This document shows, piece after piece, positions 1-18,258 of a stretch of DNA of 64,000 bases; position 1 is the stretch's first letter, and each line of letters begins with the position of its first letter. This stretch comes from Brevibacterium antiquum (GTDB taxonomy: Bacteria; Actinomycetota; Actinomycetes; Actinomycetales; Brevibacteriaceae): positions 186,001 through 250,000 of the forward strand of contig NZ_JABASX010000007.1 of assembly GCF_016107655.1 (NCBI RefSeq), read 5' to 3'. A model generated the notes under the pieces. That model was not told the origin of the DNA. It made no database searches and was given only the letters and a program-made list of their open reading frames with translations. Position numbers and translations under genes: made by a program.

Positions 1-8
1 GTGTTGAA

Positions 9-3000
9 TTGGAAAATCAAGTTTCCACGGTCTCACGCGAAGTGCGCGAAAATGGGAAGAATCTTCAAGATCGTGCCAAGGTGCTTCGAAAAGACATCCA
101 GGTGCTGCGCAGACGAGTTCCTGCTGGGTACTTGGACTCAATGCAGTCAGACGTAGCGATGATCAACGATACTGGAAGAGAAACTTTGCGAATCGCGTTT
201 GAATCAGCGATTCGGTTGGGTCGTGATCCCAAGTCGGTACTTTCTGACCAGCAAGCTCGCAGATTGTTTGATGCGTACATTGAGCGTGGGCAATTTCTGA
301 ACACCAGGCCTCTGCTTGAGAATTTTGACGTCGTTAAGAACGAAAGTCTCACGAGCCTACGTCGTCTTTACCAGTACTACCGGAAGTCGGGCTATTGGGA
401 GCTTGCCCTTTTGGTTGTCTGTCGGATACACACTGTGACTGGCCGAGACACCGATCGTTTCGCTGCGGAGAAGATCCATCGCGAGATTAAGCTGTTTAAG
501 GAACCAGAGGCTGTAGATCCCGAATTGCCAGATGGCGACGCTTATAGCTCCGATGGGCCGATTCTCCATATGGTTGGCCGTGTGTTACCCGAGACGCAGA
601 CTGGATACACCCTTCGTACCCAGTACACTGCGCTATCGCAACAACGAAAGGGACTGCCAGTTGCTATCGTCGGACAGACTGGCATAACGGGTACAGACTC
701 TCCTTCCATTGAGCACTATCGTTTTCAAGAGATGGACTACTATCTGTTGCCTGGTTCTCCTCGTAGCCAGATGATGATCGATACATGGCTCGAAGAAAAT
801 ATTGAACAACTAGCCGAGTTGGTCCGAACCCTGAAACCTAGCATTTTGCACGCGCAATCGGACTTTTTCAATGCGTTGATTGTAAACGCCGTGGGGAAGA
901 AATATGGAATACCGACCGTCTATGAATCCAGAGGGTTCTGGGAAGAGTCGTGGTTGTCCCGGTCAATAAATGCGAACAATCAAATGGATAGCTACAATGA
1001 GTTGTCTGAGATGTACGGCGAGCCGGATGCGTATGTTCTCCGCAAGCATGCCGAAGAGATTGCGCGATTGCAGCCGGACCATGTTTTTACTCTTGCCGAA
1101 GTTATGCGGCAACATATTCTAAATTCAGCGAACGGTCTAATTCCAAACACATCGGTCAGCCTTGTCCCGAATGCGGTTGAGCAGGCCAATTTTCCAGTTC
1201 AGGAACGTGACGATGCGCTGCTTCGGGAGATTGGTTTACCGGAAGACGCTGTGGTTGTCGGGTATATTTCGTCAATGGTGGAATACGAGGGTATAGACAC
1301 TCTAATCAAAGCCTATGATGAAGCAAGACAACAATCCTCTGAGAAAATGTGTCTTTTGCTGGTCGGAGATGGCGACTACCTCGATACTCTCCGTGAGCTA
1401 GTTCGGAGCGAGGAAATAGAAGACGTCTACTTTACTGGACGTGTACCCCACGAAGATGTCTTGATGTACTACGGTATAATCGATATTTTCGTTGTTCCAC
1501 GTAAAGCCTCTACCGTCGCTAACCTGGTGACTCCATTAAAACCATTTGAAGCGTTCTCCACCGGAAGAGCCGTAATACTGTCGGATGTAGATGCTTTAAA
1601 TGAGATAGCTCTTCAATCATCTGCTGTAGATACATTTTCGGCGGGATCTGCGCTCGATCTCGCTAGTAAATTGGTCAAACTTGTTGGTGATCCCGAGCGT
1701 CGTAAGTCTCTCGGAGATCGAGCTCAAAGATGGGTAAGGAACCATCGTTCCTGGGACAGTAACGTCAATGAATATTACCGTGTCTACCGCGAGCTCGGGT
1801 ACTCCGGGTTCGTTGAACCGGTCGTACTTTCGGAGTTGAGTATCACCTCCCAGGGCGCAAATCCGGGCGAGATTCTGGCAGCACTTGCACAGAGTGAAAT
1901 TCCGGCATTGACTGGTTGGTTCAGTATCCAAGAGAACAGGCAATCTGCATCAGAGATCCTAGACGTAGGTTGGAGGTTCGCAGGGTTCGATCCTGTGCCA
2001 GTTGCGCGACTAACCGACTGGTCGATATATGGTCAGGAGCATCGCTCGTGGGGATTCCATCTCCACGCGTGGGAGTTTATGGATTCGATTTTGCGCGAAT
2101 ATGATGCGACCGGTAAGCAATCTTGGTTGCGAGCAGCGATTGATATTGCCATTAGCTGGTTTGATTTGCATCGGTCATCAGAATCCGATGTAGGCGACCC
2201 TATGGCCTGGTACGATATGTCGCTTTCCCTGAGGACACCCAGGCTGATTGCGATTACTCTGCGTGCTGCTCGCTTTCCGGATTTGCGAGACGACGTAGTA
2301 GTCCTTGCGGAAGGAGTCTCTCAGCATCTGCAAGAACTTCATAAAGAAAGATCGTTCAACCCGAATAATAACCACGGATTTTACACTGCGATTTCGCAGG
2401 TCCATGCCGCCAAATATGCTTGGATGTTTCCGGGCTCCAAGCAGTCCGCGTCAGAAGGGCAAGTGCGACTTTCGCGCATGGCCGAGTCACAGTTTGCCTC
2501 GGATGGAGTTCACATGGAGCACTCGCCGGACTATCACCGGATGCTTTTGGCCTCGTTTGAACGAGGCGTCAACGACAATTTGATTCAGGACGCCGATGTT
2601 CAGACGCGGGTTCGTCGCGCTGCGCACGTACTGGGGTGGATGATTCAGCCAGATGGTGCGCTAGTCCAATTTGGTGATTCGCCCGAAACGATTCTGGTGA
2701 AACCGGGTTCAGAGTCCATTGATCCTGAAACCCACTTCATACTCAGCGAAGGTGCTTGTGGCACGCAGCCTCAGAGGGAACTAGCAGTGTTTCGAGAAGG
2801 CGGGTACGCGTTCGTACGCTCACCTCAGCCCTCGCAAGATGTCGCACTAAACCGCAGTAGTTATCTTGCGTTCAGCGCTGCCTTCCATTCGCGAGCGCAT
2901 AAGCACGCCGACGATCTGAACGTCGTTTGGTTCGATCGAGGCAGTCAGATACTGACTGACGGTGGGCGATATGGCTACGGCGACCTTCTTCCGGCTGATT

Positions 3001-3593
3001 CGCCCCTCCGAAAAGAGGGTTTCTACTATTCGGCGCCCGAGCGACAGTATGTTGAAGGGACGATGGCCCACAACACTCTTATGATGGACGGAGCGAACCA
3101 GGATCGGCGGACGAGAACTCCTTACGGCGGTGCTATTGGTGAATGTTCCGAAGAAGACGGGGTGTTCGATCTGTCCGGCCGAGTGCATCATCTGGATTAC
3201 ATACACCGGAGGAGAGTGATCTTCACTCCTGGAACTCAGCTTCGGGTCAAAGATTCCATATTTTCGCAGTCTCCGGATAATCGCGAAGGCATCCTTTGGT
3301 TCAACATCCCGGGGGAGTTTGAGCTGATCTCGACTGAAGACAATATCGTCGAGTTTCATCTTGGTAGTGAGACGAACCCGCTGAACCTCGAGGTTCGAGG
3401 ACCAGGCAGGCTGGTCGAACCTGTCCGTGGTCAGACTGGCCCTCTACGAGGCTGGCGCTCCAGAAAAGACAGGAAACTGGAGCCCGTCTGGTCGCTTGGT
3501 TTCGCAATTTCGATTGACACGCGTGCGAGTGTGGAAACAGTGTTCAATCTATCAATGAGCGGTCCTAGTATGACTCCAGACCAGCAGCCATAG
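9..3593 (+). CDS. Glycosyltransferase family 4 fused to heparinase II/III-like lyase (5' end may lie outside window)
   Basis: The 1194-residue protein joins two enzymes. Residues 1-50 look like a coiled coil. Residues about 190-590 form a GT-B glycosyltransferase (PNAVEQANFP near 386, VGDGDY, TPLKPFEAFSTGRAV near 510; the first Glu of the usual EX7E motif seems replaced by Asn). Residues about 650-1180 are a heparinase II/III-like polysaccharide lyase: alpha-toroid, NNNHGFY near 785, HSPDYH near 834, the HSRAHKHADD motif near 958, and MAHNTLMMDG in the beta-sandwich. All the usual catalytic His/Tyr positions look present. No signal peptide is visible, so a cytoplasmic or membrane-associated role in building or trimming a uronic-acid polymer is inferred. 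The TTG at 9 is only the first usable start; the frame is open to the window edge. The next gene starts 12 bp downstream, suggesting an operon. Confidence 0.8.
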   Translation: MENQVSTVSREVRENGKNLQDRAKVLRKDIQVLRRRVPAGYLDSMQSDVAMINDTGRETLRIAFESAIRLGRDPKSVLSDQQARRLFDAYIERGQFLNTRPLLENFDVVKNESLTSLRRLYQYYRKSGYWELALLVVCRIHTVTGRDTDRFAAEKIHREIKLFKEPEAVDPELPDGDAYSSDGPILHMVGRVLPETQTGYTLRTQYTALSQQRKGLPVAIVGQTGITGTDSPSIEHYRFQEMDYYLLPGSPRSQMMIDTWLEENIEQLAELVRTLKPSILHAQSDFFNALIVNAVGKKYGIPTVYESRGFWEESWLSRSINANNQMDSYNELSEMYGEPDAYVLRKHAEEIARLQPDHVFTLAEVMRQHILNSANGLIPNTSVSLVPNAVEQANFPVQERDDALLREIGLPEDAVVVGYISSMVEYEGIDTLIKAYDEARQQSSEKMCLLLVGDGDYLDTLRELVRSEEIEDVYFTGRVPHEDVLMYYGIIDIFVVPRKASTVANLVTPLKPFEAFSTGRAVILSDVDALNEIALQSSAVDTFSAGSALDLASKLVKLVGDPERRKSLGDRAQRWVRNHRSWDSNVNEYYRVYRELGYSGFVEPVVLSELSITSQGANPGEILAALAQSEIPALTGWFSIQENRQSASEILDVGWRFAGFDPVPVARLTDWSIYGQEHRSWGFHLHAWEFMDSILREYDATGKQSWLRAAIDIAISWFDLHRSSESDVGDPMAWYDMSLSLRTPRLIAITLRAARFPDLRDDVVVLAEGVSQHLQELHKERSFNPNNNHGFYTAISQVHAAKYAWMFPGSKQSASEGQVRLSRMAESQFASDGVHMEHSPDYHRMLLASFERGVNDNLIQDADVQTRVRRAAHVLGWMIQPDGALVQFGDSPETILVKPGSESIDPETHFILSEGACGTQPQRELAVFREGGYAFVRSPQPSQDVALNRSSYLAFSAAFHSRAHKHADDLNVVWFDRGSQILTDGGRYGYGDLLPADSPLRKEGFYYSAPERQYVEGTMAHNTLMMDGANQDRRTRTPYGGAIGECSEEDGVFDLSGRVHHLDYIHRRRVIFTPGTQLRVKDSIFSQSPDNREGILWFNIPGEFELISTEDNIVEFHLGSETNPLNLEVRGPGRLVEPVRGQTGPLRGWRSRKDRKLEPVWSLGFAISIDTRASVETVFNLSMSGPSMTPDQQP

Positions 3594-3605
3594 GGAGACA
3601 TAATC

Positions 3606-6600
3606 TTGAACATAAATTTCGTCTGTGTGGCAAGGAACACCAGCGCCAAAGGTCGACTGGGGTATCTTTTTGATGCTGCCGTCAGCGATGCTAAATCGAT
3701 CTTTCCAAATTCTGTAGGTAGTCAGTGGGTGGATGATGGCGCCGCCATTTACAACGCAAACGGTGTCTCAGGCACTTGGTTGCCCCCAACCTGGCATGAA
3801 GATGCCGGCGATCTTATCTCGGTTTCTCAGCCACCCATTCCGATTGACACATTGACTGATGCTGACAATTATTGGGATGTCGTGGGACAGCTAGTTCGGC
3901 GTGGTGATTATGGTCGGCTACTGCCAAATCATTTCGGAATACATCGGACCGTTGAGGGTACCGTCAAAATTTGGTCTGATGTATTGGGTCTTGGGCGTTG
4001 CTACTATGTGGTTACGCCTGACTTCGTAGCAGCGTCGAATCACATCGGTATACTTGCGTATTTTGTCGACGGACCAATCGAGATGGACCACAATTCAGTG
4101 TCTCGTTATGCGCATACTGAGTGGTTCACTCTAAATGACTCTCCGATCGTCGGTATCAGAAGGCTGGGCGAGGGATCCGTAATAGAGGCACACCCGGATG
4201 GCTCAGCCAGGATCTACGAACACAACGACCTGCGAGACCTGGTGGGTAGCCGCGACCAAATGCCAGACTACGAAGCAGTGGTCGACCAGACCAGGATCGT
4301 CGGTGCGAATCTTGACCAACTGAGCGTTCGTACTCCAACTGTCATGTTGAGCGGGGGCCGCGATTCCAGGATGACCGCGTCAATCTGGCTCAGCTCTGGT
4401 AACAGTGCGCGGGTTGTCACCACAGGGACACTTCAGCGAGAAGCAGAGCTTGCAAGCATCTTGATGAAGGATTTCTTCGACACCAACGGACAAGACGATC
4501 GTGTGAGTCACGAAATTACATATAGGAAATCGACGTCGATAACCATGAGGCTTGAGGATCGCTTGGAGAGAGCATTCCTCATGTGGGATGGCGACGCTGC
4601 TCCGATTAATATGCGTTCCAACGTGCCGACGCCGACTGGTGCGCTTGCGTTAAATATAGGCGGCGTCGGGGGAGAAATCACCCACGGATACTACTACGAT
4701 CATCTTGACGAGTATGGTAGTAATATTCTTGGGCGCAATCCGATGTTACATGCAAAACGCAAATTCGGATCCGCGTCCGTCACAGAATATTCTGCGGAAA
4801 GCATGAGTGATTATTTCGAAATTCTCTGGGAAAAATCTATAGCTGATGGACGAAAAGACATACTGGCACTTGACTACCTCTATCTCAACGAGAAGTACCG
4901 TCGCTGGGGAAATCAGGCCCTAAACTCAACTTCAGCAATTATGCTTTCAGCCCCAGCGTTCGTGCGGGCGGCGTTTGACACCAGTCCTAGCGACCATGTC
5001 AGCAAGAAGATGCCAACCTCGCTAGTTGAAAAGGCCATACCATCTTGGGCGTCTGTCCCCTATTACAAGGCGAGCGCCGAAGAGTCCAAAGCTTCGATGG
5101 CCAAGAAGCTGGCTACATTCGACACCGACCCAGATTACTTTTTTACGACGTTGCGCGAATCCGAAACATGGCCCTTGTACCTGCAGACTGACCGAGTGAG
5201 TAAATTTACTGACCTGGTTCGTAAGGGGCAGGCAGCACCAGTGCACGAGTCGTTTCTCAATCGTGCTATTTGGATCGATTACATAGGTAAGCATGTACGA
5301 GCTCTCAATGAGCACGTCAAACAAGTTCATGACTCGCATAGGCCTTCGGTGACCATCGCTGAGAATGTATATTTGCAGGCGCAACTGGACGACCTGAATA
5401 AAGGTTTCTTCAGTCCACGCAGGTCTGACGACGATGTAAGCCGAGATCTGGTCGAAGGCGCACTGACATTGAGCGCGCAACGCGTTGACGTATTCGACAC
5501 TCATACGTTTAATGATTCGTTGACACTATCGCGTGGGGACAAACTGGTGTTGCATTCTTTGCGGTGGGTTGACGTTTTGAGACGATCCCCGTCTAACGGC
5601 GCATCCAGGCAGGCTTGGAGCCACATCGTTGACGCCTGGAGCAGGTCTGAAGAATCTCGGGACCGTACTTCGGTCGCGTGGGCAGCCAGTGTGTTAATCC
5701 AACGGTCGACTGCTTTGGCACTCGGTATGGGGCAAAGCGATCAAGAAATAGAACTTGCAGATATTCATCTGCAGCAATTGGGCAAGGTGGGCGCTGAGGT
5801 TCTAGACGGCGTTCGACGTTTGGAGATACTTCGCATTGAACTGAGCCTCATGCATCGTCTTGGAGCTCCTCGCCGCAAAGTCGAGGAGCTTGTAGAAAAC
5901 GCGGCGATGGAGGTGTTTCACGATAGTGGCTATGTGTCCTGCACTGATCTGCGCGCGGTTTTCCAGGCCAAGGCAGCTTGGGGCGATGTCCTTTGCGGGG
6001 TTGGTGTGGACAAAGCCTCCGACGCGATGACTCGAGTTCGTGCTACCGCTTTTGTTCCGCATCTATTATCTCCTACAGGTCGCTTCATACCATTTGGTGA
6101 GGAGCTGCCAGATTTTGCTGAACTCGATTTAGACGCCCCCACGCGATACGTAATTAGCCGGGGGAAGGAAGGATCTCCCCCAGCTGCCTTGCGTTCGGTG
6201 ATTCCGGTGGGCCCGGTGATGTTGCATAGCGGTTGGGGAGAGACTGAGCGGAATGTTGAAGACGAGACCGCAACGAGTATCCTGTTGGGTCCAGTCCGTG
6301 GCCGTAAATCTCATCGTGATGCATCGCGCGTAACGTATTCTTCACAAGGTCGAGACTGGATAATTGACCCTGCAGATTCGTTGCTCGTCGATGCAGATTG
6401 CCACTCAAATATCCTTGTCGACGGGCGACGATATAGAGAACACAGTCGTGCCGAACTGATCAGAGAATACGACGATGGCGAAGTGGATGGCTTCGTTGTG
6501 AACAACACTGCTTATCTCCCGGTTCAATGGCGGCGACACTTCGTTTTTGTCAGGACTGGCAATTATGTAGTGGTTTCTGATGTACTGCGATCATCCGATA

Positions 6601-8162
6601 AGTTCGACGCATTTCAACAATGGATGGTTGCTCCTGATGTCGAGGTGGAGATGGTCCGACGAGGGTTCGTGCTCAGATCTCAAAATCGAATTGTGAGTAT
6701 ATCCGTGGTCAGTCGACAGGTTCGCGATTCCGTCATAGAGCCCATCCTGGATGAACATGGCGCACGATTAGCTTGGAGAATTCGAGTCCCGATGTCTGGG
6801 AAGAGCGCCCGGGCGACTACCGTCATAGCTGACGTGACCGAGGAGACGGAGGCAGCATTGGCTCCAAGGATCGACTATTTCGGTGCGGAGTTTGCTGTCC
6901 AAATGAACCACAGCAATATGAACGAACTGTTGGTCGTCACTCCGGACAGGTCGGTCGTTTTCCCTGGCGACAGTGATCCTGAGACAAGTGTCTCCGAGGC
7001 CATCAACCGGGCTGCCTCCGGTCAGCTCAGTCCGGAACAGGCCCTAGAGCAGCGCTTGGCGGTGCGAGAGGCGATCATCGCAACCAAGAGGCAGATTCGT
7101 GAGGCAGGAGGGAACCTGGAATCCCGCAAAGCTGGAATGGAGAAGCTACTAGAAACTGCCCAGGAACTGAACGTCCACGGATTGAGGGACCACGGATTGG
7201 GTGCTGCGATGGTCGATGTCGGTGGAGCAGACCTCAAGGAACTAGTTAGTGCAAGAACGACTTCTTCGGGCCTACGGAGGACCGGCCTTGTGAATTGGGG
7301 AAATTCCGGCTTTGTGCAACCAGATTATGAAGTACCCGTGGTAACATCCGTGTCTTCGGACGAGCTGCCTGTAGCGCCTAACCGGCCGTACATTTGGAGC
7401 GTTGACCACGGGCAATTGGTGCCGTCGTCATATATAACTGGTTGCACGGGAGAAGTCTTGACGGTGTACTTCCACGGTGCAACGGACCGCACCCGATTTA
7501 CCCTGCCGCGATACGAGCGCTTGCGGTCTATGGGCGAGCTGGATTCCGGGCCGCTCATGTTTTTTTCAGATCCAACATTGGATCTCGACTCGAGAATGAT
7601 TCTCGGGTGGTTCACTGGTACGGAAGAAGTGAATCTTCATTTTGAGATCGCGAAGATGATCAGCACGGTCGCCTCGCATGCGGGCGTTAAAGACGTCCTC
7701 CTCGTCGGCAACTCAGGAGGCGCATTTGCCTCGTTGCAGGTAGCTTCATACCTAGCGGGAAGTTATGTGGTGGCTTTCAACCCTCAAATTCAGATTGACG
7801 AATACGTCCCGCGCATTGCGCAAGCCGCTCATTGGAGCTGCTTCGGGCGCGATACTGTAAAAGATGACAATCAGAATGCCGAGCGGATGGATGTTATCAA
7901 ACGCTATCGAGGTATAGGTTTTGATCAGGACGTAGTACTAATTCAAAATCCTGGTGACGATCAGCATTACAAGGATCATTTCATTCCGTTTGTGAGTGCT
8001 TTTGAGGAAACAGGAGAGCGCAAACGCCTGAAGACTTATACACCTGACCTTGGTCCCGGGCATCGGGTTCCTTCGGTTCCGGAATATATGCAGTATGTAA
8101 GGGACGCGCTGGAAGAGGTCAAAGGTCAGGAGAAGTTTGAAGGTTTGCGACAGAGGCTGTGA
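3606..8162 (+). CDS. Multidomain asparagine-synthetase-like / heparinase-like / alpha/beta-hydrolase-like protein
   Basis: The 1518-residue protein has three parts. Residues 1-590 resemble AsnB-type amidotransferases: a degenerate class II glutaminase fold, then a PP-loop ATP-pyrophosphatase motif SGGRDS near 249-254. The N-terminus reads MNINF, so the Cys nucleophile of glutamine-dependent enzymes is absent. Residues about 620-1140 look like a heparinase II/III toroid plus beta-sandwich (GWGETERN near 873, KSHRDASRV, CHSNILVDG), aligning by eye with the upstream gene. Residues about 1270-1510 resemble an alpha/beta hydrolase with GNSGG as nucleophile elbow near 1368. The start is TTG with GGGAGA just upstream; the paralogue at 11627 begins the same way with GTG. 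The role is inferred: ATP-dependent amidation or esterification of uronic-acid carboxylates coupled to glycan processing. A true asparagine synthetase is unlikely without Cys2. Confidence 0.75.
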   Translation: MNINFVCVARNTSAKGRLGYLFDAAVSDAKSIFPNSVGSQWVDDGAAIYNANGVSGTWLPPTWHEDAGDLISVSQPPIPIDTLTDADNYWDVVGQLVRRGDYGRLLPNHFGIHRTVEGTVKIWSDVLGLGRCYYVVTPDFVAASNHIGILAYFVDGPIEMDHNSVSRYAHTEWFTLNDSPIVGIRRLGEGSVIEAHPDGSARIYEHNDLRDLVGSRDQMPDYEAVVDQTRIVGANLDQLSVRTPTVMLSGGRDSRMTASIWLSSGNSARVVTTGTLQREAELASILMKDFFDTNGQDDRVSHEITYRKSTSITMRLEDRLERAFLMWDGDAAPINMRSNVPTPTGALALNIGGVGGEITHGYYYDHLDEYGSNILGRNPMLHAKRKFGSASVTEYSAESMSDYFEILWEKSIADGRKDILALDYLYLNEKYRRWGNQALNSTSAIMLSAPAFVRAAFDTSPSDHVSKKMPTSLVEKAIPSWASVPYYKASAEESKASMAKKLATFDTDPDYFFTTLRESETWPLYLQTDRVSKFTDLVRKGQAAPVHESFLNRAIWIDYIGKHVRALNEHVKQVHDSHRPSVTIAENVYLQAQLDDLNKGFFSPRRSDDDVSRDLVEGALTLSAQRVDVFDTHTFNDSLTLSRGDKLVLHSLRWVDVLRRSPSNGASRQAWSHIVDAWSRSEESRDRTSVAWAASVLIQRSTALALGMGQSDQEIELADIHLQQLGKVGAEVLDGVRRLEILRIELSLMHRLGAPRRKVEELVENAAMEVFHDSGYVSCTDLRAVFQAKAAWGDVLCGVGVDKASDAMTRVRATAFVPHLLSPTGRFIPFGEELPDFAELDLDAPTRYVISRGKEGSPPAALRSVIPVGPVMLHSGWGETERNVEDETATSILLGPVRGRKSHRDASRVTYSSQGRDWIIDPADSLLVDADCHSNILVDGRRYREHSRAELIREYDDGEVDGFVVNNTAYLPVQWRRHFVFVRTGNYVVVSDVLRSSDKFDAFQQWMVAPDVEVEMVRRGFVLRSQNRIVSISVVSRQVRDSVIEPILDEHGARLAWRIRVPMSGKSARATTVIADVTEETEAALAPRIDYFGAEFAVQMNHSNMNELLVVTPDRSVVFPGDSDPETSVSEAINRAASGQLSPEQALEQRLAVREAIIATKRQIREAGGNLESRKAGMEKLLETAQELNVHGLRDHGLGAAMVDVGGADLKELVSARTTSSGLRRTGLVNWGNSGFVQPDYEVPVVTSVSSDELPVAPNRPYIWSVDHGQLVPSSYITGCTGEVLTVYFHGATDRTRFTLPRYERLRSMGELDSGPLMFFSDPTLDLDSRMILGWFTGTEEVNLHFEIAKMISTVASHAGVKDVLLVGNSGGAFASLQVASYLAGSYVVAFNPQIQIDEYVPRIAQAAHWSCFGRDTVKDDNQNAERMDVIKRYRGIGFDQDVVLIQNPGDDQHYKDHFIPFVSAFEETGERKRLKTYTPDLGPGHRVPSVPEYMQYVRDALEEVKGQEKFEGLRQRL

Positions 8163-8239: not shown

Positions 8240-9376
8240 CTATCGGCGCTTACGTAGCGATGTATTATTTCTGGCGAGCTTTTCTTCTAGGTTTCTGATG
8301 CGGGCGTATGCAGATTCGAGTTTTCTTGGTGATGGGTCGCTTCCCCAATCTGGGTGTGGACGGGATACGCGTTTGCATGGGGATCTGTACATTTCCTGCA
8401 GTTTTTGTGCTGCGGAATTTGCGGAGTGTGTGGTTTCAACATAAACGCGCCCGGCGTCTGCAAGTTCTTGGCGAAGTTGTGGGGACGTGAGGAGCTTCGC
8501 CATTGTTCCCTGAAAGGTTTTGGGATCAGCGCTCGCGATCGGCATGGTTGGATGCTGGTTGAGCACTTCGTCTCGAATTCGGGCTACAGCCACGCGTCCC
8601 AGAGCCATTGCTTCAAGTGAGAGAACTCCGGCATCACCTCCAAGTAGTTTCTCAACTACGATGTCTGCAGATTTGATCTCGTGAATCAGATCCGCGTGAC
8701 AAGCTCCTTCGACGACTTTGATTTCGAAATTGAATTTCCGTTGGAGCTCTTCAAGTCCAGCCTCAATGATGTCTGTGCCCTTGGTTGCTCGACGCCGTGT
8801 GGCATGGAGGACGACGGGGCGGCTGGGGTTTGGCAAGGCCGACATAGCGTAGTCATTGAGATTCAGGCTCTTCGGTATGTATGCTGCATCCGGCGCGTAG
8901 ACGGCATCTAGGACAGAGGATACGGTCATATGATTGGCATAGGTGCGAATAATGGCTAGTCGAGTGTCAATCTTCTCTTCGTCGCATGGTATGTCCGCGA
9001 ATCGATAGAAGCTCCAAGGATCTTCAGCAACGTGGTGGCTTGCACGTCTTATGTCCGAACCGTGAAACGACGTGACGATCTTTTTTCCAAGAGATCGTAG
9101 AAGCGGTAGATCCCACATCTGTGGAAGTCCGCCTCGGTCGGGAATGAGGGAGCGGGCCGTTTGAAAATGATAGACGTCGAAGTCTTCGTGCAGGCTTGCT
9201 TCGAGTATATTGTAATAGTCGCTCGGGGTTTCGGGGTTGAATTCGCGATCAACGAGGAATCCGTTTGGACTCGGGCCATAGTTCCAAATCTGCACGTCAT
9301 GCCCGAGTCCGCGTAGCCCGGTTGCGATTGATGTTGATTGGTTTGCGACATTGCTCGGAGCAAGTAATACTTTCAT
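8240..9376 (-). CDS. Glycosyltransferase family 4 protein
   Basis: A 378-residue GT-B glycosyltransferase. The N-terminal half has a Rossmann-like acceptor domain (MKVLLAPSNVANQS, GHDVQIW). The C-terminal half has the donor-binding region: VVLHATRRRATKGTD, VVEKLLGGDAGVLSLEAMALGRVAVA, which carries the family's E/GG..SLEAMA signature. The last 40 residues (from KLESAYARI) are predicted coiled coil and very basic at the end, perhaps a membrane or partner contact. It is transcribed against its neighbours and converges with the 1518-residue protein 77 bp away. Donor and acceptor sugars cannot be read from sequence; the context of uronic-acid-active enzymes suggests a step in surface-polymer assembly. 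Confidence 0.75.
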   Translation of the reverse strand: MKVLLAPSNVANQSTSIATGLRGLGHDVQIWNYGPSPNGFLVDREFNPETPSDYYNILEASLHEDFDVYHFQTARSLIPDRGGLPQMWDLPLLRSLGKKIVTSFHGSDIRRASHHVAEDPWSFYRFADIPCDEEKIDTRLAIIRTYANHMTVSSVLDAVYAPDAAYIPKSLNLNDYAMSALPNPSRPVVLHATRRRATKGTDIIEAGLEELQRKFNFEIKVVEGACHADLIHEIKSADIVVEKLLGGDAGVLSLEAMALGRVAVARIRDEVLNQHPTMPIASADPKTFQGTMAKLLTSPQLRQELADAGRVYVETTHSANSAAQKLQEMYRSPCKRVSRPHPDWGSDPSPRKLESAYARIRNLEEKLARNNTSLRKRR

Positions 9377-9558: not shown

Positions 9559-11136
9559 TTGCGCCAATTGCGCCTGTACATGTCACTTCTCATTTCCGCC
9601 TTTTAGCTCGCGGGGTGCACCTTTGGCACTCCTGGAGACCAGCGCGGTTCTGGTCACAGCTCTTCCCAGACTCCGACTGAATTCCGGCAGGTGCCGGGCA
9701 ACGAAGCCACTGGGAAACTAGCGGTCCTCGAAATCACCAAAGCGGGGATGAACGCTCGGTTCGAGGCTGACAATATTGGCCTTTCGTTCGAGTCAACGGT
9801 TCTTGCCGATCCTCGGCTGGATCCAGAAAGTTCAAATCTGGAAGTACTACTTAAATCTTTGGGATCACCGGCGTTGAGATTTGGCGGGAACGAATTGGAC
9901 CGGCGAGTGTTTTGGACCTCTTCAGGAGAGAAGCCGAAGAGATCCGACCAAGTCATGGTTACCCCCGATGATTTCAAGCGGCTGAAGAAGCGAGTCGACA
10001 TCACGGGCTCTACCGTCACGATGGGTATTCCGCTAGGAGACTACGACCCCGCACGTGGAGCAGATATGGTCGTGCATGCGGTCGATATCCTCGGTGAATC
10101 TCTGGTCGGTGTGGCAATCGGAAGCGAGCCTAACGGGTACACGATCGAAGGTGTTCCGAACGGAGCCGTGCGAGACAGCGACTGGACGAAAGCCAAATAT
10201 GTCAGTCAACTCGAGGCATATACAAAAAGGATACATTCCAAACGTCCAGGTGTCCCGATCATTGGTCCTGATGTCTATGACGCTGCGTGGATGGAGGCGT
10301 TTGCCGATTCGAGCGTCAGGCATAAAGCAGCGATCTCTCAGCATTGGTACCAACTGTACGAATGTGACTCCGATAAGGTGCCGGGGCGCGGACCCGAAGC
10401 CCAGAATTTGGTATCCCCGGCAGCACAAAATGATGCAAAGAAGATCCTCGGCATCGGAAAGGGCAAAGCTGACGCTGCCAATCTTCCGCTCTGGCTCGAG
10501 GAAACTGGTCCGACGAGTTGCCCGGGCACAAACGACACGTCGCTGACCAACGCTTCAGTGCTCTGGGCGGCTGATTACACGCTTCATGCAGCGACTATTG
10601 GAGTGGAACGCTTGGCCATGCATTCAATGCTAGGCGCCTGTACCGGGGGCGCGCCGATGTCACTCGTCTGTGATCCCGCCGACCACGGAACGAAATCCAA
10701 CACGTTCCAAGGTCGGCCCCATTTGGCCGCGATGAGGCTGCTGGTGCCGAGCACTGGCGGAACGTTCACGAATACCAGTGTCAAGGGTGGCGGAAATATG
10801 AGTGCATACACGGTCACAAAGGACGGTGGTAATACATTGGTGACAACAATCATCAATGCCAACGACGCAGCTGAATCGGGTGGCAATCCGGTGACGCTCG
10901 ACCTGCCGGACGGATTCACTGTCGACGGTGCCTCCCAGGTCTATGGCCCATCGAATGAAGCAAAGAATGCAACTTCGGTGATTCCGTTCAATCCTCTGCC
11001 GGACAAAATTCGATACAGCAGTCCGAGCAAGTCTGGCAATGCGACACCTTCAGCCAGCTCGAATCCGGATAACAGCGAACTCAAAATCGATATCGCGGCG
11101 AGCTCTGTCACTGTTTTTATTATGCGTAACAACTGA
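9559..11136 (+). pseudogene. GH79-like glycosidase lipoprotein with amber codon in the signal peptide
   Basis: From residue about 50 onward this is a close paralogue of the intact gene at 16705: SLGSPALRFGGNELDRR, an Asn-Glu-Pro acid/base motif (GSEPNGY here, GNEPNGY in the paralogue), WLEETG as probable nucleophile and MHSMLGAC. These are typical of clan GH-A enzymes of the GH79 glucuronidase/heparanase type. Upstream in the same frame a lipoprotein signal can be read from TTG 9559 (basic start, MSLLISAF, then LAGC lipobox at 9607-9618), but a TAG at 9604-9606 lies between hydrophobic core and lipobox. The only uninterrupted reading starts at GTG 9691 without a signal or good ribosome site, and would stay in the cytoplasm. 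I therefore call it a recently inactivated gene. Note also Gly-Ser-Glu instead of Gly-Asn-Glu at the acid/base motif, a second sign of relaxed selection. Confidence 0.7.
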
Positions 11137-11144
11137 AGACAAGC

Positions 11145-11490
11145 CGGTCGTGGTATTTACGGCTGCTCTGGTCAGTGTCTCAGCAATTTTCGCGCTTGCC
11201 CGGTGTCTTGCGAATGCTTCTACAACCTGCCGAGGCCGGTTGTCCAATAGCGTGTAGAATTTGAAGACTAGACGTATGAAGCTCATTGAGCAATATCGGC
11301 GGATCAGATTTGAACGGGACGGTGCCCTTATCCAAAAACTCGGCTGTGATCATCACCATCGAGCGCGTTTCCTGCCTTTTTGGGTTGAATATTTAGCTTC
11401 ATCACAGGCTTTACCGATGATGACCCACGTCCTGTTCTTCGGCCGAGGGGACAGGGCGCTGGTGCCTTCGAAGTATCTGAATCTTGTCCG
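11145..11490 (+). pseudogene. Remnant of the C-terminal hydrolase domain of a 3606-type protein
   Basis: From about 11276 the translation (MKLIEQYRRIRFERD, ALIQ, then HHHRARFLPF, and VPSKYLNLV) aligns by eye with the last 110 residues of the 1518-residue protein at 3606 (MDVIKRYRGIGFDQD, VLIQ, HYKDHFIPF, VPEYMQYV). Upstream the similarity continues weakly through VVVF and GR at 11200-11250, but is cut by TAG at 11255-11257. The N-terminal rest of the domain is missing and the sequence abuts the stop codon of the GH79-like gene. This is a 3' gene scar, left by duplication or recombination of a second asparagine-synthetase/heparinase/hydrolase module. The frame runs on to a stop at 11554. Confidence 0.6.
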
Positions 11491-11626
11491 CGGCGACGCG
11501 GTTATGATTGGTACTATGACTTTGCGACTTCTCGGCTTGAGACACAGAAGCTAAGCAATCTGGAATATACAAAAGGACCGAGTAGACCGCACTGCGTTGG
11601 CGTGGGTATAAGAAGTATGGAGAATT

Positions 11627-13375
11627 GTGAATATAAACTTCGGAGTAGTTGCTTTGTCGGCGCGGGGCCGGCACCTTCTTCCTGCGTTGTGGCGGGCTGC
11701 ATTGGAGATGGGCGGAGAAGCCTATGACCTTGAAGGAAAGGCTAGTGTCCTAGAAGATAGCCGAGCTGTGCTCAATGCTCGCAGCACTGCTCAGACCTGG
11801 GACGCACCCACTTGGATCGAAGATAGAGAGGGTATTATCGCGCTCTCCCAGCCGCCCGTCTCCTATACGGAGAAGGTTCCACGATCTGGCTGGGAAAACT
11901 GGGCTCGGACTGCGCTTCGCGTCGATTCTGGGCGATCCAATGTCCAGCCTGGCTACTTCGGTCTTGAGATGCGCAATGATGGAACTTTCCAAGCGTGGAA
12001 CGATTTGTTTGGTTTCGGGCGGGCATATGTCGTCCAAAACGAGGACTTCGTAGCGGTGGGCAACCATATCGGAATGACCTCTCTGTTTGCCAACCAAGGG
12101 TTGGAAATCGATATGTATGGATGCGACGTCCTGTCCCAAGTGGGGTTTTGGCCAGAGGATGCTTCTCCCGTCTCGACTGTGCGCCGCCTCGGTCCGTCAG
12201 AGGTGGTGAAAGCAACTGCCGACGGAGCCGTGCAACGATATCGCTATGCGACCGACGAAGAGTTTTACGGATATAGAGCCTCGGAACCAAATGTCCGGTC
12301 TGTAGCGGACTCGCTGGCAGTAGTTACCGCGAACGGTGGCGAAATTGCTATCCAGGCGCCGGTAGTTTATCTCTCAGGCGGTCAGGATTCCCGAGTGACG
12401 GCGGCCGCGTGGATCGTGGGAGGTAAACCCGCAACCGTTCAGACGGCAGGTACTCTTCAGGGTGAAGTCGACATTGCTCGCCAGCTGATGGCGACGCTTG
12501 AAAAAGAACGCACCTTGGAAGAGCGCAATATCACCTACAAGGTGACGGAACCGAGTCCGGCAAGACTGTCTACTTATTCCATCGAAGATCGACTTGCCCA
12601 GGCTATGTTGATGTGGGATGGCGATTTCGCCCCCGGGAATCTCAAAGCTGCAGTTCGGCGTCCGCCAGCAAGATCCCGGTTAACCGTTGGGGGCGCCAAC
12701 GGCGAGTTGATGCACGGCATCTACTACTCGACTGAGAAATTCTTAAAAATGGCTCGCGAACTTCCGCATCCCGTTGATCGAGTTGCTAATGCTTTTGCAG
12801 GCCGAGTTAATACTGAGAGATCCCGCACCGCATTTTTGTCCTTTATTGAACATCAAGTGGAATTTACCCGAAGCCTGGGGCATTTGGATGCTACGGCACT
12901 TAACGTATTTCAAATGCACTCAAAGTTCCGGCGCTGGATCAACGCACAGTTGAGTGCATCGTCTTTTGTCCTTTTGCTGAATCCGGTCTTCGTGCGCAAT
13001 TGCATTGATCTCACTCCCGAGCAGCGTCTTAGCAAGGAATTTCAGCGGGCTCTTTCGCGCGAATTGATTCCACAATGGGAAAGCACTCCATATTATAAAG
13101 CGACGATGGAAGAATCCACTTCGACGATGCGGAAGCGTCGGATCCGCACCTGGGATACTTCCGAAGGATCCATGGAGAGGCTGCTTCACGAACGTACGGC
13201 TTGGCAGCAATGGTTTGAGCCAAGCGCAATGGCGAAACTCGAGCGTACTGTTCACGCTGGAGAAGGTACTAGTGTTGATGAATCAACGCTAAACAAAGCT
13301 TACGTTCTGGACGCCATTCCTGACCATGTGGCGAGGCTTGAATCGATTCGTCGTTCCATTTGGTCTAGGTGGTAA
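11627..13375 (+). CDS. Stand-alone asparagine-synthetase-like protein
   Basis: The 582-residue protein is a paralogue of residues 1-590 of the fused protein at 3606: same MNINF start, same degenerate glutaminase fold (DLFGFGRAYVV, AVGNHIGM, VRRLGPSEVV), and a PP-loop SGGQDS near residues 250-255, followed by MLMWDGD and the conserved STPYYKA-like motif (ESTPYYKATMEESTSTM). Cys2 is absent here too. PP-loop domains of this type activate a carboxylate with ATP; the loss of the glutaminase Cys is also seen in beta-lactam synthetases, which use an internal amine. The nucleophile used here is unknown. It lacks the heparinase and hydrolase parts carried by its longer relative; the hydrolase scar just upstream suggests the module was broken apart. 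Start GTG at 11627 has GGAGA close upstream. Confidence 0.72.
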   Translation: MNINFGVVALSARGRHLLPALWRAALEMGGEAYDLEGKASVLEDSRAVLNARSTAQTWDAPTWIEDREGIIALSQPPVSYTEKVPRSGWENWARTALRVDSGRSNVQPGYFGLEMRNDGTFQAWNDLFGFGRAYVVQNEDFVAVGNHIGMTSLFANQGLEIDMYGCDVLSQVGFWPEDASPVSTVRRLGPSEVVKATADGAVQRYRYATDEEFYGYRASEPNVRSVADSLAVVTANGGEIAIQAPVVYLSGGQDSRVTAAAWIVGGKPATVQTAGTLQGEVDIARQLMATLEKERTLEERNITYKVTEPSPARLSTYSIEDRLAQAMLMWDGDFAPGNLKAAVRRPPARSRLTVGGANGELMHGIYYSTEKFLKMARELPHPVDRVANAFAGRVNTERSRTAFLSFIEHQVEFTRSLGHLDATALNVFQMHSKFRRWINAQLSASSFVLLLNPVFVRNCIDLTPEQRLSKEFQRALSRELIPQWESTPYYKATMEESTSTMRKRRIRTWDTSEGSMERLLHERTAWQQWFEPSAMAKLERTVHAGEGTSVDESTLNKAYVLDAIPDHVARLESIRRSIWSRW

Positions 13376-16704: not shown

Positions 16705-18258
16705 ATGTTGATCAGACGAGCAATTGCTACTTGCTCCGTGACGATGGTCCTTCTCCTCAGCGCATGCACCCTCGGCTCATCGCCCGACCACAGCTCGAAC
16801 TCGAGTCCGACGCCGACCGTGTTCGAGCAGGCGTTTGTCTCCGACGCTCGTGGTTCGGAAGCCACTCTCTCCGTGTCGAACAAGAAGACACATAACAATT
16901 TCCGTGCGAACAACATCGGCCTCTCGCTCGAGTCCACAGCGCTCGCCGACAAACGGTTGGACCCCGATGCCTCCAACCTTGACGATCTGCTCAATTCGCT
17001 GGGGTCTCCCGCGCTGCGCTTCGGCGGAAACGAACTCGACAGACGCTTGTTCTGGACATCCGATCACGCATCACCTTCTAAGTCTGATCAAGTCGTTGTC
17101 ACACCTGAGGATTTGAAACGCTTGAAGAAGCTCGTCGATGCCACCGGTTCAACGGTGACGATGGGGATTCCCCTGGGCACGTACGCCCCGAAGCAAGGTG
17201 TCGATATGGCCGTTCACGCCGTCGACATCCTTGGCGACTCTTTGGTTGGTCTGGCTATTGGAAATGAACCAAACGGGTACACGATCAAAGATGTTCCGGG
17301 CGGATCCGTACGTGACAAGGGATGGAATAAGCAGGAGTACGTGAAGCAGCTCGAGACCTATGGGAAAGCGATTCATGCTGAGCGTCCCGATGCTCCGATC
17401 ATCGGTCCTGATGTTTACGACGGTGCATGGATGGACGCGTTTGCCGATTCCGATGTCACCAATAAAGCTGCACTCTCCCAACACTGGTACCAAACGTACG
17501 AATGTGACTCCGATAAAGTTCCCGGCCGCGGTCCGGAACCGCAAAACCTCATTGATCCGCTCGCGAAGAAGTCGGCGCAGAAGAACCTCGGTATCGGTAA
17601 GGATCACGCGGATGAGGCGGGGCTTCCGCTGTGGCTCGAAGAGACTGGCACCACCAGTTGTCCGGGAACGAACGACACCTCGCTGACTAACGCCTCGGCG
17701 TTGTGGGCGGCAGACTATACGCTCTATGCAGCGACTCTCGGCGTTGAACGCATGAGCATGCACTCGATGCTGGGGGCTTGCAATGGGGGAGCTCCGATGT
17801 CGCTGGTCTGTGACCCTGCCGATCATGGCTCCCGATCCGATACATTCCAAGGGCGACCTCACATGGCCGGGGTGCGTCTTCTGGTTCCGAGTATCGGTGG
17901 AACGTTCACGAACACAGCCGTCAAAGGTGGCGGGAACATGAGCGCGTACACCGTGGTCAAGAACAATGGCGAGACCCTGGTGACCACAGTCATCAACGCC
18001 AACGACGCGGAGAAGTCGGGTGGAAACCCTGTGAACATGCAGATGCCGGAAGGGTTCTCAGTCGAGAGGGTCTCTCAGGTCTACGGGCCTTCGAATGAGG
18101 CAAAAAGTGCTACGCAGGTCATCCCGGCCAATCCTCTGCCGGATACTGTTCCTTATGGTGGGTCGACGAAGACCGCTGGCGCCGACGCAGAAGGGAACGA
18201 CTTGAAGATCGACCTCGCGGCGAGTTCGGCCACGGTGTTCATCATGACCAAGAAGTAG
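16705..18258 (+). CDS. Secreted GH79-like glycosidase lipoprotein
   Basis: A 517-residue lipoprotein: MLIRRAIATCSVTMVLLLSAC is a type II signal with lipobox LSAC (Cys21), followed by a Ser/Pro-rich linker. The body is a clan GH-A (beta/alpha)8 glycosidase with a C-terminal beta-sandwich. Signature pieces are GSPALRFGGNELDRR near 105, AIGNEPNGY near 193 (acid/base Glu), LSQHWYQ, WLEETGTTSCPG near 312 (nucleophile Glu) and MHSMLGACNGG. The closest family I recognise is GH79 (heparanase and bacterial beta-glucuronidase), which removes glucuronic acid from glycans. It would sit on the outer face of the membrane. It is the functional paralogue of the broken copy at 9559. Ribosome site AAGGGA precedes the ATG. 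GC content and codon use are closer to the host than in the 1-13 kb block. Confidence 0.75.
   Translation: MLIRRAIATCSVTMVLLLSACTLGSSPDHSSNSSPTPTVFEQAFVSDARGSEATLSVSNKKTHNNFRANNIGLSLESTALADKRLDPDASNLDDLLNSLGSPALRFGGNELDRRLFWTSDHASPSKSDQVVVTPEDLKRLKKLVDATGSTVTMGIPLGTYAPKQGVDMAVHAVDILGDSLVGLAIGNEPNGYTIKDVPGGSVRDKGWNKQEYVKQLETYGKAIHAERPDAPIIGPDVYDGAWMDAFADSDVTNKAALSQHWYQTYECDSDKVPGRGPEPQNLIDPLAKKSAQKNLGIGKDHADEAGLPLWLEETGTTSCPGTNDTSLTNASALWAADYTLYAATLGVERMSMHSMLGACNGGAPMSLVCDPADHGSRSDTFQGRPHMAGVRLLVPSIGGTFTNTAVKGGGNMSAYTVVKNNGETLVTTVINANDAEKSGGNPVNMQMPEGFSVERVSQVYGPSNEAKSATQVIPANPLPDTVPYGGSTKTAGADAEGNDLKIDLAASSATVFIMTKK

Follow-up and report, generated by a model that had tools for sequence, protein, structure and literature searches.

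A three-part gene with AsnB-like, heparinase-like and CsaC/Asp2-like domains in a surface-polysaccharide cluster of Brevibacterium antiquum

The locus and its surroundings

The open reading frame described here occupies positions 3606-8162 of the plus strand in a 64,000-nucleotide stretch of the Brevibacterium antiquum genome (assembly GCF_016107655.1, contig NZ_JABASX010000007.1, positions 186,001 to 250,000), hereafter the window, and encodes 1518 amino acids in one open frame. Translation begins at a TTG codon with AGGGAG 8 nt 5' of it, and the N-terminal pattern M-N-[IV]-[NT] is common to homologues. A wrongly assigned TTG was ruled out, the start being conserved in homologues, and a chance frame was rejected, each of the three parts being recognised separately. 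The ORF and its three-part composition are confirmed as real, far beyond chance. The genome copy, which comes from the same assembly as the window, is 100% identical and has no internal stop; the genome holds one full ORF, a stand-alone AsnB-like paralogue, and one fragment. A membrane anchor on the fused protein was considered and rejected, the maximum 19-residue hydropathy being 1.36. The sequence-only reading had described an AsnB-like PP-loop part, a heparinase-like part, and an α/β-hydrolase-like part with a GNSGG elbow. The gene is real and unusual, and the reading of two of the three parts changes.

The ORF lies within a surface-polysaccharide cluster, followed through the window and 20 kb upstream. 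WecB and WecC, the genes for UDP-ManNAcA, score above their equivalog cut-offs, in agreement with the earlier suggestion of a uronic-acid polysaccharide setting. Further cluster genes encode a Polysacc_synt_2 dehydratase (CapD/PglF type), a WecA/MraY-like transferase, and several glycosyltransferases; the best models for the ABC permeases and ATPase are teichoic-acid exporters, below cut-off. Immediately upstream, with 12 nt between its stop and the TTG, is a gene (3-3593, plus strand; full length 1282 aa, 1745-5593 of L033) encoding a membrane segment, a GT4 glycosyltransferase, and an intact-motif heparinase, here called GT-heparinase. Its best NCBIfam model is TIGR04063 (PEP-CTERM/XrtA systems), below cut-off. 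Behind the ORF, a GT4-type glycosyltransferase gene (8240-9376) runs on the opposite, minus strand, and a stand-alone second AsnB-like gene, AsnB2 (11627-13375, plus strand, 582 aa), encodes a protein 33% identical to part 1. Over the initial 14 kb the G+C content is 49-55%; beyond 18 kb it rises to 60-69%.

Several other features accompany these genes. Directly 5' of AsnB2, positions 11195-11542 hold a decayed piece of another CsaC-like domain (30% identity, interrupted by one TAG), which looks like the remains of a lost second gene for parts 2 and 3. Two glycoside-hydrolase-like genes (9691-11136, with the shorter frame, and 16705-18258) are 68% identical to each other, and one of them matches PF00150 below cut-off; similar genes occur in 6 of 11 related gene sets. 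A DUF6270 gene (L032, 16479-17351; PF19786, E = 1.9e-51) adjoins the exporter genes and recurs in several related clusters.

The three parts of the protein

Part 1 (3606-5330, plus strand; residues 1-575) consists of a Cys-less Ntn-type N-terminal domain and a PP-loop (ATP-pyrophosphatase) synthetase domain. The AlphaFold2 model, calculated from a 12-sequence alignment, has a pLDDT of 86.3 and a pTM of 0.88, and the two-domain AsnB fold spans its residues 2-568. VIA-align superimposes the model onto the hydroxyamidotransferase TsnB9 with Z = 22.5 (497 residues, rmsd 4.0), onto Escherichia coli AsnB (1ct9) with Z = 19.6 over 434 residues, and onto β-lactam and carbapenam synthetases with Z = 17.6 and 17.3, respectively. 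A profile of part 1 matches six classical AsnB-type sequences with a probability of 98 and E = 1.1e-12. The earlier assignment of a PP-loop AsnB-like domain, for which structure prediction had been proposed as the check, is therefore borne out, and the window protein retains an intact SGGRDS. Annotation libraries and sequence searches give little at this locus: Pfam matched no family to part 1; NCBIfam, searched with the ORF and with part 1 up to E = 1, listed none, TIGR03108 included; and PDB sequence searches, whether the query was the entire ORF or the AsnB profile, returned nothing up to E = 10. One part 1 homologue gives a weak match to TIGR01536 (E = 6.7e-4, below cut-off). The likeness to WbpS put forward earlier is useful as an analogy only; part 1 lacks the Cys, and none of the NCBIfam AsnB models scores above its cut-off.

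The N-terminal Cys makes AsnB-type enzymes glutamine-dependent. In part 1, residue 2 is Asn in all 12 sequences, so the domain has no glutaminase of its own. The PP-loop SGG[RQ]DSR, E357, and K488 are invariant in the same 12 sequences, the most distant of which is 31% identical to the window protein. In the profile alignment, K488 matches the Lys of the E. coli AsnB RQK motif and E357 the final Glu of GEGSDE, whereas a multiple alignment places K488 two columns from the AsnB Lys; identity to AsnB is about 11%. In both alignments, the part 1 family has Val, Ala, or Gly where AsnB has the first GEG Glu; we take this Glu and the later Lys to be E348 and K449 of E. coli AsnB. With that Glu replaced, the chemistry of part 1 must differ from that of AsnB or be lost. 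Four more distant SGGxDSR relatives (L114, L043, L044, and L045) have no Lys at the K488 position. Sequence and model together identify part 1 as a predicted AsnB-fold synthetase that would work without its own glutaminase and with an altered active site.

That part 1 is not a sugar-amidating ligase at all, making another product or being a dead paralogue, is a doubtful reading but one to be kept in mind. The closest solved structure is a hydroxyamidotransferase, the Cys and the Glu348 position are both lost, and AsnB2 could be the active copy in the cluster. Against this reading stand the invariance of SGGxDSR, E357, and K488 over the 12 sequences and the strict company that part 1 keeps with uronic-acid polysaccharide genes in its close clade.

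Part 2 (5349-7100, plus strand; about residues 582-1165) matches PF07940 with 27.5 bits against a cut-off of 24, as expected from its earlier description as heparinase-like. We aligned 27 heparinase-like sequences, admitting GT-heparinases above 600 bits and others with more than 350 aligned residues. The NNHG, EHSP[DE]YH, and HKHADD blocks are kept in 13/13 GT-heparinases or tandem partners, and in the forms NH, YH, and HxHxD in five of five other heparinase-like proteins, four of which carry a hydrolase domain. These blocks are presumably catalytic. In the AsnB-linked clade, by comparison, the N/H and Y/H blocks are absent from all nine proteins, window included (two rows are cut at a sequence edge with the motifs still covered), and the second His and the Asp of HxHxD are retained in all nine. 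A PDB alignment with the alginate lyase AlgL17 places similar letters at the blocks and is significant for the third block only. The profile of parts 2 and 3 finds a single PDB match, a designed protein at chance level (E = 0.81). The structure model of parts 2 and 3, with a mean pLDDT of 57, is of too low quality to place the heparinase part; in fold searches with it, the hydrolase domain fills the matches listed, and heparinase is absent among them. Judged by its motifs, part 2 is a putative lyase-dead heparinase scaffold, which probably holds polymer.

These losses bear directly on the sequence-only reading, in which a single trifunctional enzyme would activate a uronate, attach an amine to it, and then trim the resulting product or transfer it. 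Carboxylate activation suits part 1 and the ORF is a single frame; beyond this the reading is very improbable, given that two lyase motif blocks are missing throughout the clade, that the relatives all manage with unfused proteins, and that the intact lyase motifs belong to the upstream gene. Trimming by the protein itself is unsupported, since part 2 has lost both blocks.

Part 3 (7356-8159, plus strand; residues about 1251-1518) is predicted to be of the α/β-hydrolase type, as its GNSGG motif had suggested, by a PDB profile search and by fold searches with the weak model. With a profile of 14 homologues, the best PDB match is SacC/CsaC (E = 6.9e-5), followed by Asp2 (E = 2.8e-4); further down come an unrelated adhesin (E = 0.12) and the best esterase (E = 0.22). 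Equivalents of CsaC residues S114, Q138, D198, and H201, located through the profile alignment, are kept in 32/32, 31/32, 31/32, and 31/32 sequences, respectively, and in 23/23, 23/23, 22/23, and 22/23 of a smaller set. The larger set adds L013, L018, L020, L024, L008, L011, L012, L017, and L030 to those 23 rows; L009 was left out as a copy of G025, and several rows represent near-identical species. The triad is present as Ser in 32, Asp in 31, and His in 32 of the 32 sequences, the last His (CsaC H228) being matched by motif only. The apparent equivalent of CsaC Tyr79, likewise matched by motif only, is Tyr in 27 of 32 sequences and Phe in the window; H228 and Y79 both lie outside the stretch aligned in the profile search. 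A published account describes CsaC as O-acetylating a ManNAc polymer and its H201-Q138 arm as an unusual extension of the triad (PMC7501274).

By structure, CsaC and Asp2 (Gap123) occupy ranks 1-2 with Z = 14.8 in a search with the low-confidence model, in effect tied with esterases that lie within one Z unit. In a rival reading, part 3 is an esterase or deacetylase, taking O-acyl groups off instead of putting them on. In the structural ranking, rows 5-50 are dominated by esterases, lipases, and further α/β hydrolases less than 2 Z from CsaC, the top Foldseek rows are esterases, and the weak Pfam matches point mainly to general hydrolase families (Abhydrolase_6 and UPF0227 among the 14 members, of which one matches Asp2 with E = 0.0076). 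Against this, the profile E-values favor CsaC and Asp2 over the best esterase, and CsaC's additional Gln and His are each kept in 31 of 32 sequences; we regard the esterase reading as unlikely. Pfam places no family over cut-off on part 3 of the ORF itself. On the profile evidence, part 3 looks like a CsaC/Asp2-type O-acetyltransferase.

Domains of the part 3 type also occur alone and joined to a rhamnosyltransferase-like domain. In a genome of the same genus (G025; L041, 15998-18271), a CsaC-like domain is N-terminal to a glucuronyl C5-epimerase C-terminal domain (PF06662, E = 1.4e-26); this protein is a second uronic-acid enzyme joined to a CsaC-like domain.

One frame or two genes

Part 1 and parts 2-3 are encoded by two neighboring genes in 8/8 relatives found: Brevibacterium daeguense; five named members of Brachybacterium (sp. 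SGAir0954, sp. FME24, B. endophyticum, B. tyrofermentans, and B. phenoliresistens); and two genomes with the same genus label as SGAir0954 (G372 and G387). In the six named relatives the AsnB stop overlaps the next start, as ATGA in five and GTGATG in one. In G372 and G387 the two genes are in different frames, and the AsnB frame is open, stop to stop, for 740 and 704 codons, respectively. Of the three-part fusion described in the earlier note, the single ORF stands, while the join of part 1 to part 2 was found in the window genome only.

At the join (5331-5348, plus strand), a TGA in another frame overlaps a GTG that is in phase with part 2. The ORF would thus be two overlapping genes of a surface-polysaccharide cluster joined end to end, and because the other-frame TGA overlaps that GTG, a single-base frame change is apparently its simplest history. 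The fusion is a local event, or an error. A sequencing or assembly error, with the organism itself carrying two overlapping genes as its relatives do, is an unlikely but far from negligible explanation of the joined frame. The split state in all relatives, the sufficiency of a one-base change, and the nearly linker-free meeting of the two parts all speak for an error. The join has no homopolymer by direct reading, and both of its sides are open and conserved throughout; the genome copy reads identically as well, but derives from the same assembly. An error would touch the fusion alone and is compatible with the main explanation given below.

The gene pair is patchily distributed. Within the genus, 2 of 57 genomes, counting that of the window, have a full-length part 1 orthologue, and 6 of 57 have any match; G026, G001, G033, and G047 were left out as orthologues, being distant or partial. 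Among 396 genomes drawn from the order, 21, again counting its own, give some match. A contig scan yielded eight loci, six with part 1 orthologues and two with the second AsnB-like gene. Given this patchiness, we infer that the cluster probably moves between genera.

GT-heparinase precedes the pair in 8/8 relatives, with a further heparinase domain between them in three. WecB is present in the clusters of all eight and WecC in six, the other two having been read only in part. Full-length AsnB2 is found in six of the eight, and also in G395 and Agrococcus terreus; of the remaining relatives, G419 has a 48-residue fragment and the 75 kb read of B. daeguense has none. The GT4 gene behind the pair is on the same strand in B. 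daeguense and on the opposite strand in the window, G372, G387, G419, and FME24. In G330, GT-heparinase stands beside one AsnB-like gene (32%), and parts 2-3 are absent from the stretch read. A heparinase-like ORF is present in 4 of 15 neighborhoods of mostly more distant AsnB-like genes, so the link between AsnB and heparinase is strict only in the close clade.

Related arrangements were also seen. Three Brachybacterium loci (L097, 16218-19846; L105, 9893-13415; L050, 4395-7952) encode two tandem heparinase domains after the glycosyltransferase, both with intact motifs. In G130 (L038), the GT4 glycosyltransferase and the heparinase are separate adjoining genes. Two loci from a different family of the order (L117, 12117-14306; L118, 11867-14203) have Cys-containing AsnB-like genes close to a heparinase-like ORF.

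Proposed function and known systems

The mechanism we consider, with about an even chance of being right, is one in which a uronic-acid surface polymer is tailored in the cytoplasm, by ATP-driven formation of an amide together with O-acylation. The domains, the motif gains and losses, the neighboring genes, and the split state of the relatives are observed directly; we infer from there the substrates, the amide and O-acyl products, the binding role of part 2, and the site of action, which is placed in the cytoplasm because the protein has no hydrophobic segment. A polymer including ManNAcA (WecB, WecC) would be built in the cytoplasm. Part 1 would activate a carboxylate by adenylation, the C-6 carboxyl of the uronic acid being the likeliest candidate, and transfer it to an amine, either ammonia or an amino compound, supplied from elsewhere than a glutamine site of its own. 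The part 2 scaffold would hold the polymer chain, and the Ser of part 3 would take an acyl group (from acetyl-CoA in CsaC) and give it to a sugar hydroxyl. The lyase of the upstream GT-heparinase would trim the chain, and a Wzm/Wzt-type ABC exporter would take it out.

Put together, this would amount to a tailoring module in which a glutaminase-free AsnB-type ligase amidates a polymer uronic acid while a lyase-dead heparinase with a CsaC-type O-acetyltransferase holds the same chain, here welded into one 1518-residue protein. As a whole we offer this tentatively and rate it as rather unlikely. No description of such a polysaccharide-tailoring module was found, nor any paper on this gene set in the open-licence literature searched, as far as titles and the openings of abstracts show. 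If true, an AsnB-fold enzyme would be decorating a polymer of the cell surface with an amine obtained from outside. Three testable activities can now be named for a gene with little annotation, and a domain seen in many genomes of the genus is linked to the mechanism of the CsaC capsule acetyltransferase. The locus also provides a clear example of motif loss in a heparinase fold, beside a copy with its motifs kept, and, if the join is real, of a fusion between overlapping genes caught at the single-base stage.

Part 1 shares the two-domain fold and the PP-loop SGGxDS with TsnB9 (PDB 7ylz) and with AsnB (1ct9), and the profile alignment keeps the AsnB Lys and last GEGSDE Glu. It is 12% identical to these enzymes and lacks their N-terminal Cys; where AsnB has SGGLDSS and the GEG Glu, part 1 has SGGxDSR and Val, Ala, or Gly. 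The β-lactam and carbapenam synthetases (1m1z and 1q19) also have the AsnB fold, are without a working glutaminase Cys, and make an amide by adenylation. They close a ring within one small substrate, however, whereas part 1 sits in a polysaccharide cluster. WbpS, WbqG, and eps_aminotran_1 (TIGR03108) are of the glutamine-dependent type, from which part 1 differs in being Cys-less and in having no TIGR03108 match. According to a published account, WbpS and WbqG are AsnB relatives that amidate uronic acids, and all three, like part 1, belong to uronic-acid polysaccharide clusters (PMC7468200).

In comparison with heparinase II/III lyases (PF07940/PF16889, including PL17 alginate lyases), the C-terminal domain of part 2 is over the Pfam cut-off and keeps the second His and the Asp of HxHxD, but the N/H and Y/H blocks are gone. 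Part 3 has the Ser, Gln, Asp, and His set of CsaC/SacC from Neisseria meningitidis A and of Asp2/Gap2 from the accessory Sec system, and the PQ...Y and DxxH stretches of CsaC and Asp2 align with it. CsaC is a protein of about 250 residues that stands alone and has Tyr79, whereas part 3 follows a dead heparinase and, in the window, has Phe at the apparent site. A ManNAc-type sugar is common to the CsaC pathway and the window cluster.
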